64,000 nucleotides of DNA from Halogeometricum rufum (GTDB lineage Archaea > Halobacteriota > Halobacteria > Halobacteriales > Haloferacaceae): NCBI RefSeq assembly GCF_900112175.1, contig NZ_FOYT01000001.1, positions 930,001 to 994,000 on the forward strand. Reading direction: 5' to 3'. Both the position numbers and the translations under genes were made by a program. Below, piece by piece: positions 52,759 through 63,539 of the stretch (the first letter of the stretch is position 1; every line of letters begins with the position of its first letter). The notes beneath the pieces are model-generated. The model was not told the DNA's origin, did not search any database, and saw only the letters and a list, made by a program, of their open reading frames with translations.

Positions 52759-54519
52759 CTATCGGTCGGGGTCGGACTGGTGTTTGATGACGTTACCCTC
52801 GTAGACGACGCCGCGTTCGGCGTGGAGCGTCACCTCCGTGCCGGGTTCGACGCTCTCGGGCAGCGGTGCGCCGGATATCATCGGAATGTCGAGTTCGCGG
52901 GCGACGAGGGCCGGGTAGCCCGTCATGCCGGGGCGCGCGTCGATGATGCCGGCGAGTTTCTTCGCGTCGCCGTCGAACTCGCCGTCGAACTCCGCGGGGA
53001 GGGCGAGCACCGCGCCGTCGGGGACGTCCGAGAGGTCGCCGTCCGGCGAGACGGCCAGCGGACCGGCGACCCGGCCGCCGACGACTTTCCGCCCGGTGGC
53101 GATGGCCTCCGCGGCGACGTGGACCTTGAGCATGTTCGTCGTGTTCGTCCCCTCTAGCTCCGTCATCATCCCCGAGAGGACGACGAGGGTGTCGCCCGAC
53201 TCGGCGACGTCGGCGTCGAGGGCGGCGTCGACGGCGTCGTCCATGATGTCGTCGATGCCGTTGCGGTAGGCGGCGTACTTCGGGATGACGCCCCACGAGA
53301 GGGCGAGTTGGCGGCGCACCCGGTCGTTCGGCGTCGTGGCGACGACGGGCACGCCGGGGCGGAACTTCGCCGTCTTCCGCGCGGTGTACCCCGACTCGGA
53401 GGCGGCGACGATGGCGGTGGCGTTCACGTCGCGCGAGAGGTAGCGGGCGGCGCGGGACAGCGCCTCCGTCCGGGAGTCGTCCTCGGCCGCGGGGACGTGT
53501 TGCTCTCTCGTCTCGTCGTACTCCGCGCTGGATTCTATCTGTCGGACGATGCGGTCCATCGTCTGGACGACTCGGACCGGGTTGTCACCGATAGCCGTCT
53601 CGCCCGAGAGCATGACCGCGTCCGTCCCGTCGAGGACGGCGTTCGCCACGTCCGACGCCTCCGCGCGGGTCGGCCGTCGCGAGTGGACCATCGAGTCGAG
53701 CATCTCCGTCGCGGTGATGACGGGCGTCCCCGTCGCCTGACACCGCCGGATGATGCGCTTCTGGATGATGGGCACCTCTTCGAGTGGCATCTCGACCCCG
53801 AGGTCTCCCCGGGCGACCATCACGCCGTACGACGCCTCGATTATCTCCTCCAAGTTCTCGACGGCGCCCGCGCGCTCTATCTTCGCGACGACGGGGATGT
53901 CAGCGCCGAGGTTCTCGAGTGCGTCGCTGATGGTGTAGACGTCTTCGGCCGAGCGAACGAACGACGCCGCAACGAAGTCCGCGCGCTTCTCGGCGGCGAC
54001 TTCGAGTTCCCGCCGGTCGCCCTCGGTGATGAGGTCGATGTCGAGTTTGACGCCGGGGAGGTTGACGCCCTTTCGACTGTCGAGTTCGCCGCCCGAGTCG
54101 ATGCGGGCGACGACGGTGTCGCCCTCGACGCGTTCGACCGTCGCCTCGATGCGGCCGTCGTCGAGGAGGACGGTGTCGCCGGGTTCGGCGGCGGCGATGG
54201 AGTAGGAGAGACCGACTTCCTCGGGCGTCGCGTCGTCGCTCTCGACGAATCGGACTTCGCTGCCCGTCGCGAGGTGAATCGGCTCGTCGATGGGTGCGGT
54301 TCGCACTTCGGGGCCCTGCAGGTCCACCATCGCGGCGAGGGGTTCCTCGGTGCCGGCGTCGACCGTCCGGATGCGGTCGATGACCTCCGCTCTGTGCTCC
54401 GGCGTGCCGTGACTGGCGTTGAGGCGGGCGACGCTCATCCCCGCGTCGGAGAGTGCCCGAATCGTCGATTGGTCGTCGGACGCCGGGCCGAGCGTACAGA
54501 CGATTTTCGCGTTTCTCAT
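52759..54519 (-). CDS. pyk: Pyruvate kinase with C-terminal PEP-utiliser-like domain
   Basis: 586 aa. Converts PEP and ADP to pyruvate and ATP. Core motifs: KIVCTLGPASDDQSTIRALS (5-24), SRKGVNLPGVKLD, metal/PEP site VAKIERAGAVENLEEIIEAS (two parts), ARGDLGVEMPLEEVP and TATEMLDSMVHSRRPTRAEA. A ~100-residue C-terminal extension matches the PEP-utilising mobile domain, but the phosphohistidine loop (normally TSHAAIVARE) reads TGYPALVARE, with Tyr535 in place of His. So the extension cannot carry phosphate and is probably structural or regulatory. Divergent from petD-like. Confidence 0.95.
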   Translation of the reverse strand: MRNAKIVCTLGPASDDQSTIRALSDAGMSVARLNASHGTPEHRAEVIDRIRTVDAGTEEPLAAMVDLQGPEVRTAPIDEPIHLATGSEVRFVESDDATPEEVGLSYSIAAAEPGDTVLLDDGRIEATVERVEGDTVVARIDSGGELDSRKGVNLPGVKLDIDLITEGDRRELEVAAEKRADFVAASFVRSAEDVYTISDALENLGADIPVVAKIERAGAVENLEEIIEASYGVMVARGDLGVEMPLEEVPIIQKRIIRRCQATGTPVITATEMLDSMVHSRRPTRAEASDVANAVLDGTDAVMLSGETAIGDNPVRVVQTMDRIVRQIESSAEYDETREQHVPAAEDDSRTEALSRAARYLSRDVNATAIVAASESGYTARKTAKFRPGVPVVATTPNDRVRRQLALSWGVIPKYAAYRNGIDDIMDDAVDAALDADVAESGDTLVVLSGMMTELEGTNTTNMLKVHVAAEAIATGRKVVGGRVAGPLAVSPDGDLSDVPDGAVLALPAEFDGEFDGDAKKLAGIIDARPGMTGYPALVARELDIPMISGAPLPESVEPGTEVTLHAERGVVYEGNVIKHQSDPDR

Positions 54520-54571
54520 GACACGGACTACAGGCGAACGCGTAAAAAAGCCCGACGATGGACTACTCTCG

Positions 54572-54586
54572 TGGTAAAAACTACCA
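54572..54586. promoter_or_regulatory. Inverted repeat TGGTA-N5-TACCA in the pyk/petD-like spacer
   Basis: Perfect 5-bp arms (54572-54576, 54582-54586) directly beside CTATAGCGC, a TATA-like element for the plus-strand gene, in the 142-bp divergent spacer. A TACTC half-site (54564-54568) resembling half of the TrmB motif lies 4 bases away. Confidence 0.4.
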
Positions 54587-61167: not shown

Positions 61168-63456
61168 CTAGCGCACCGAGTCGAGGACGAGTCGCTGTTC
61201 GACCCGCTTGACCTCGTGTTGCACGTCGCGCACGGCGTCGATGTTCGCGGAGATGGAAGAGATACCCTCGTTGACGAGGAACTGGACCATCTGCGGCTTC
61301 GACGCCGCCTGTCCGCAGATGCTCGTCTTCACGCCCACCTCGCGACAGGTCTCGATGGTGTCGCCGATGAGTTTCAGGACGGCGGGGTGCAGTTCGTCGA
61401 ACCGGTCGGCGACGTTCTCGTTGTTCCGGTCGACGGCGAGGGTGTACTGCGTCAGGTCGTTCGTCCCGAACGAGACGAAGTCGAGTCCCGACTCGGCCAT
61501 CTCCTCGACGCCGAGTGCGGACGCGGGCGTCTCTATCATCACGCCCCACTCGCGCTTGTCCGGGTCGATGCCGGCCTCCGCCATCAGGTTCTTCGCCTGC
61601 AGGACGTCCTCGGCGTCGTTGACGAGGGGGAACATCACCTCGACGTTGTCGTAGCCCATCTCGAACAGGCGGCGGAACGCCTCCAGTTCGTGCTTGAATA
61701 TCTCGGGCTTGTCGAGACTGCGGCGGATGCCGCGGTAGCCGAGCATCGGGTTGTGCTCGCGCGGTTCGTCGTCGCCGCCCTCCAACTGTCGGAACTCGTC
61801 GGTGGGCGCGTCGAGGGTGCGGACGCGGACGGGTCGCGGGTAGAACTCCTCGGCGACGCCGCGGACGCCCTCGACGAGTTCTTCGACGAAGGCGCGTTCG
61901 CCGTTGTCGGCGATGTACTTCTCGGGGGTCTTGCCCAGTGAGAGCACCATGTGCTCGATGCGGAGCAAGCCGACGCCGTCGGCGCCGGTGGCGGCGGCGC
62001 GTTCGGCGGCCTCGGGGATGGAGACGTTCACCTTCACCTCCGTGGCGGTCATCGGCTTGACGGGCGTCTTCGGCCGCGCCTCCTCGATGGGTTCGCGTTG
62101 CTCCTCTTTCAGTTCGGCCCCCTCTCTGACGGTCCCCTTGTCGCCGTCGATGGTGATGGGCTGACCCTCCTCTATCTCGCGGGTGGCCGACCCGGTGCCG
62201 ACGACGGCGGGGACGCCGAGTTCGCGCGAGACGATGGCCGCGTGCGAGGTCATCCCGCCCTCGTCGGTGACGATGCCCGCCGCGCGCTTCATCGCGGGTA
62301 CCATGTCCGGCATCGTCATCTCGGTGACGATGATGTCGCCGTCCGACACCTGGTCGAGGTGGTCGAGTTTGGTGACGATGCGGGCGTTGCCGGCGGCGAT
62401 GCCGGGACTCGCGCCGAGGCCGCGGAGTATCATGTCTCCCGACGTCTCGCCGGCCTGTCCGTTCGCGGCCCCGCCGTCGCCGGCGGCCGCCTGCGCCGCC
62501 TCCTCCTCGCCGTCGGAGATGGTCGTGATGGGCCGCGACTGGAGCATGTACACGTCGCCGTCGTAGATGGCCCACTCGACGTCCTGCGGTTCGCCGTAGT
62601 GGTCCTCGACGCGTTCGCCGAGTTCGACCAGTCGGCCGATTTCGTCCTCGTCGAGGACGCGGGCGCTCCGCTTGTCGTCGGAGACCTCGCGTTCGACCGT
62701 CTGCCCGGTCTCGACGTCCTTCTCCATCATCATCTTCTTGTCCGCGACGGTGGCCGTCTCGACCTCGCCAGACTCGCGGTCGACGACGTAGTTGTCGGGC
62801 GAGACGGACCCCGAGACGACGGCCTCGCCGAGGCCCCAGGCGGCCTCGATGATGATGCGCGGTTCGCCCGTGGAGGGGTGCGAGGTGAACATCACGCCGG
62901 ACTTCTCGGCGTCCACCATCTCCTGGACGACGACGGCGATGTCGACTTCGTGGTGGGGGAACCCCTTCCGATTCCGGTAGTATATCGCGCGCTGGGAGAA
63001 CAGCGACGCCCAGCACTCCTTGACTCGTTCGATGAGGGCGTCTCGCTGGACGTTCAGGAACGTCTCTTGCTGTCCGGCGAACGACGCGTCCGGGAGGTCT
63101 TCGGCCGTCGCCGACGACCTGACGGCGACGAACGCCTCGCCGTCCCCGACGTCCTCGTAGGCGGCGAGAATCTCCTCGCCGACGGCGTCGGGAACCGGCG
63201 TCTCCATGATGAGTTCGTGTGCCCGTTCGTGCGCTTGCTTCAACGCCGCGGAGTCCTCGTGGTCCACGTCGACGGCGTCGAAGAGTTCCTCGTCGATACC
63301 CGCGTCCTCGATGAACGAACGGTACGTCCCGGCGGTCACGACGAACCCCGGCGGGACGGGGAGACCCGCGGAGGTAAGTTCGCCGAGTGAGGCACCTTTT
63401 CCGCCGACTGTGCCCAAGTCGTCGGCGCGTACGTCGTCCAGCCAAACTACAGCCAT
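61168..63456 (-). CDS. ppsA: Phosphoenolpyruvate synthase
   Basis: 762 aa. Makes PEP from pyruvate and ATP for gluconeogenesis; opposite to pyk. The N-terminal ATP-grasp part has [10 protein letters not shown] (18-27) and [20 protein letters not shown] (111-130); the phosphohistidine domain carries His405 in [20 protein letters not shown] (401-420); the C-terminal TIM barrel has the catalytic Cys in [11 protein letters not shown] near residue 725. An Ala/Gly/Asp linker (about 317-340) before the His domain is a haloarchaeal insertion. A TrmB-like operator lies upstream. Confidence 0.96.
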
Positions 63457-63491: not shown

Positions 63492-63523
63492 CTTTCCGAA
63501 CAACTCCAACGTGAATTATACTA

Positions 63524-63539
63524 TACTCGGCTCCGAGTA
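63524..63539 (-). promoter_or_regulatory. TrmB-type operator upstream of ppsA
   Basis: TACTCGGCTCCGAGTA is a perfect 16-bp palindrome and matches the published H. salinarum TrmB consensus TACT(N7-8)GAGTA with N7. It is about 45 bases upstream of the ppsA TATA centre on the minus strand, the position expected for activation. Confidence 0.7.

Follow-up and report, generated by a model that had tools for sequence, protein, structure and literature searches.

In Halobacterium salinarum, the regulator TrmB sits on the promoter of ppsA and departs from it within 2 min of glucose. This protein (VNG1451C), whose sites read TACT-N(7-8)-GAGTA, activates ppsA in the absence of glucose and represses pykA (PMC3794607). 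In Haloarcula hispanica, the regulon of TrmB-Har (HAH_1548) is marked by a palindromic site at gapII and ppsA (PMC10817205). There, gapII is a target both by ChIP and by expression, the ppsA promoter is bound but the gene is not differentially expressed, and pyk is not a TrmB target. The position of the operator relative to TATA sets whether regulators of this family activate or repress, as is also the case for the TrmB-family regulators TrmBL1/Tgr of Thermococcales (summarized in PMC10817205).

We analysed a 64,000-nt stretch of Halogeometricum rufum DNA, hereafter the window, that contains both ppsA and pyk. The features of the ppsA region are:

61168..63456, minus strand: ppsA, phosphoenolpyruvate synthase, 762 aa, above cut-off for TIGR01418 (951 bits against a cut-off of 740) and NF005057
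63483..63491, minus strand: TATA-like TACTTATGA, 27 nt upstream of the ppsA ATG
63492..63499, minus strand: BRE-like TCGGAAAG, kept in haloarchaeal ppsA promoters
63524..63539, minus strand: palindrome TACTCGGAGCCGAGTA, putative TrmB operator of ppsA, with its core ACTC-N6-GAGT at 63525-63538

The preliminary description of this DNA had reported an exact TACT-N7-GAGTA consensus before ppsA, and we confirmed both its letters and its position. Indeed, TACTCGGCTCCGAGTA, at 63524-63539, consists of two perfectly inverted 7-bp arms around a 2-nt centre and matches the consensus exactly on both strands. It lies in a 103-nt intergenic gap bordered by ppsA and a small upstream gene on the same strand, and 67 nt separate its end from the ppsA ATG. 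Shuffled versions of the window yielded a mean of 0.05 matches to this consensus, and two strand matches were seen in 2 of 100 shuffles. The palindrome is located upstream of the BRE/TATA-like core, which is the position of an activator by the rule given in PMC10817205. The positions of the core elements would place the transcript start near the ATG, so that ppsA is probably transcribed as a leaderless message; a start near the ATG is common in haloarchaea.

We retrieved 80 haloarchaeal ppsA loci, the closest named relative being Halogeometricum limi (91% identical), and obtained 79 usable promoters, our own window counted in. Allowing a single mismatch, 65 of these 79 promoters contain ACTC-N6-GAGT at a distance of 58-72 nt from the ATG, as compared with 0.5 (maximum 3) when the promoters were shuffled. 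The half-sites hardly vary, in contrast to the centre, and dyad and BRE are mostly separated by either 20 nt or 25-26 nt. This in-register conservation refutes the view that the element is a chance palindrome in a GC-rich genome, to which we leave practically no probability, even though the genome contains ACTCR-N4-YGAGT 94 times and several of the places matching TACT-N7-GAGTA fall inside apparent genes. The latter motif gave 19 strand matches in the genome, spread over 14 places, and its reversed control gave 3. Deriving TrmB targets across the genome from the bare motif was rejected because of those 94 occurrences and of the places in apparent genes; the gene calls around the motif places, which are composition-based and rough, were unused as evidence for targets. 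Two places are recorded here in their own right. An apparent ABC transporter gene, possibly a further TrmB target with the site in a repressing position, has a palindromic TACTCGTTCACGAGTA (L010:1501-1516; G000 C2:790739-790754) 16 nt ahead of its start, and an apparent TenA-like (thiaminase II) gene has TACT-N8-GAGTA (L030:966-982; G000 C3:147665-147681) about 107 nt upstream.

A search of the genome with the PF11495 profile returned five matches, four of them full-length. The best match, P0001 on contig C2, scored 233 bits, with 78 bits for the winged-helix domain PF01978, and among solved structures it is closest to TrmB 3qph (E 1e-25). P0001, which has these sugar-binding and winged-helix domains, is the one clear TrmB ortholog of the genome. 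The lack of a TrmB gene had been named beforehand as a finding that would speak against a TrmB site; as a full ortholog is encoded, the TrmB reading is not refuted. The recognition-helix stretch IPQPRVYDTVR is invariant in 22 of the 22 P0001 orthologs examined, near and distant TrmB included. The promoter of trmB carries TACTC-N7-AGTA 34 nt before the ATG (L015:2563-2578; G000 C2:287863-287878), and each of the 30 trmB promoters examined has, at 33-35 nt, an element that is recognizable when up to two mismatches to the dyad are allowed. Its location near the core promoter suggests that TrmB may be negatively autoregulated in these lineages. For the Har. hispanica protein, autoregulation was reported to be absent in vivo, in contrast to what was seen with homologs in vitro.

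The same element is found at gapII. Our own gapII promoter contains TACTCGCCCCAGAGTT 59 nt from the ATG, a distance similar to that of the ppsA site, and the element recurs at 56-66 nt in most of 28 other haloarchaea. As a separate observation, in one genus (g14, for example G346 C1:249869-252193) a second GAPDH-II gene adjoins a gene whose match to PEP synthase is confined to the C-terminal half (query ~331-762), an arrangement that recurs in about 10 genomes of the genus.

TrmB was found in 337 of 391 Halobacteria genomes that are at least 90% complete. Presence of the ppsA site was compared with that of TrmB in about 85 genomes, with the TrmB-less set (22 handles corresponding to 21 distinct genomes) re-scored in full. 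The site was present in 48 of the 51 genomes with a TrmB at least 65% identical to our own, in 0 of 13 with a TrmB below 65%, this line having been set after the data were seen, and in 1 of 21 without TrmB. Fisher's test for TrmB present versus absent gives p = 8e-9 with relatedness ignored, and as the genomes are related the co-absence counts are not independent. The ppsA site is hence mostly kept together with a close TrmB and missing where TrmB is missing. The exception is a 160-contig draft (G306) that has sites at both ppsA and gapII and in which a close TrmB was not found; its TrmB may simply be unassembled. In the gapII promoters of the other 20 TrmB-less genomes the dyad is absent at the expected place. 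Within a single genus (g26), two genomes with TrmB carry a perfect ppsA dyad, and two without TrmB show GACTCG(C/T)CGATACGTT at ppsA, which looks like a decayed remnant of the dyad.

Some genomes with a distant TrmB (<65%) keep the dyad at gapII or before trmB. Since they do so, and since IPQPRVYDTVR is invariant, a change in DNA specificity is disfavoured as the cause of ppsA-site loss in this class; with an unchanged recognition helix, the loss looks like a rewiring of the regulon. The dyad could in principle be bound by another regulator of similar specificity, for instance a TrmB paralog, given that three full PF11495 proteins are encoded beyond P0001. However, site presence tracks the P0001 ortholog, and the invariance of the recognition helix was observed among the orthologs of this very protein, so that we regard such a substitute as very improbable.

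The ppsA element combines the sequence and genomic features of a haloarchaeal TrmB operator: it is a palindrome, in a gluconeogenic promoter and upstream of BRE/TATA, with a cognate TrmB in the genome and with conservation and co-absence across genomes, G306 excepted. We therefore read it as the operator for TrmB, a winged-helix regulator that senses sugar and that would bind and activate without glucose and be released by sugar, and we put the probability of this reading at roughly 87%. The TrmB assignment made in the preliminary description is supported by the conservation at ppsA, the gapII element, the absence of the site from TrmB-less genomes and the TrmB ortholog, all of which, like the sequence and position of the palindrome, are direct observations. 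Binding, the activating direction and release by glucose are carried over from Hbt. salinarum and Har. hispanica. By this analogy, in the absence of glucose a TrmB dimer would occupy the palindrome, next to the BRE/TATA core on its upstream side, and activate ppsA, directing pyruvate towards gluconeogenesis. Sugar in the C-terminal domain of TrmB would then release the protein, and ppsA expression would drop.

It is also conceivable, if rather unlikely, that TrmB binds the ppsA site as a relic or a modulator of little effect, the real control point lying at other steps such as gapII. The Har. hispanica ChIP peak at ppsA, where expression is unchanged in the trmB mutant (PMC10817205), implies that binding at a site does not in itself mean regulation, and the distant-TrmB genomes, which lack the ppsA site while some keep that of gapII, suggest that ppsA control is dispensable. 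On the other hand, both half-sites and their position are strongly constrained in 65 of 79 promoters, and the ppsA response in Hbt. salinarum is strong. An operator through which TrmB activates ppsA remains our preferred reading.

The pyk gene of the window presents a different promoter, with these features:

52759..54519, minus strand: pyk, pyruvate kinase, 586 aa, promoter without canonical TrmB dyad
54562..54575, minus strand: inverted repeat ACCACGAGAGTAGT (also recorded as TTTTTACCACGAGAGTAGT, 54550-54580), of the form ACCAC-N4-GTAGT, in the pyk promoter at the usual spot of the TrmB dyad

Scanning this promoter for ACTC-N6-GAGT gave at least two mismatches everywhere, and no pyk operator of the Halobacterium type was found. 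The dyad is present (at most one mismatch) in 21 of 29 distinct pyk promoters. It lies 41-48 nt from the ATG in 18 of them, adjoining the expected BRE and about 25 nt closer to the ATG than the ppsA dyads, and at 10 nt, downstream of a TATA-like run, in three (two Halobellus and Haloquadratum). By the TATA-relative rule of PMC10817205, both positions are those expected for repression. Among the 29 promoters, the dyad is absent from four distinct Halogeometricum-like genomes, one near genus and two Halobellus, and Halogranum has a two-mismatch version. TTTTTACCAC-N4-GTAGT stands at the dyad spot in the Halogeometricum-like genomes and in one Halobellus.

A TACTC half-site near 54564 had been cited as a sign that ppsA and pyk may be controlled differently. 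These letters exist (GAGTA on the pyk strand), but they belong to the repeat ACCACGAGAGTAGT, two sister species (L246, L247) have not retained them, and we rejected them as a TrmB half-site. The suspicion itself is plausible, as the two promoters do differ in this genus, where pyk lacks the dyad. A genome scan for ACCAC-N4-GTAGT returned 11 loosely matching places, several of them apparently coding, and a large regulon for this element was rejected. Tentatively, and at less than even odds, ppsA and pyk may have been uncoupled in the Halogeometricum lineage, with ppsA under TrmB and the pyk dyad swapped, at an unchanged promoter position, for a putative ACCAC-N4-GTAGT operator of another regulator.

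The system thus resembles that of Hbt. salinarum in its consensus, its target ppsA and the presence of TrmB, but differs from it at pyk, where TrmB represses pykA in that species and the dyad is missing here. It is like that of Har. hispanica in its palindromic sites at gapII and ppsA and in a pyk that seems to lie outside TrmB control. TrmBL1/Tgr of Thermococcales have a different DNA motif and different hosts. Since ppsA is already a known TrmB target in Halobacterium and Haloarcula, this is a new instance and not a new system; our additions are the footprint seen across the lineage, its joint absence with TrmB and the element exchanged at pyk. Our results broaden the reach of a known glucose switch by a new lineage, and the joint absence of operator and regulator amounts to a genome-scale test that ties a DNA element to TrmB without experiment. 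Furthermore, the patchy distribution of ppsA, gapII and pyk sites across haloarchaea opens the rewiring of this central control point of metabolism to direct tests.
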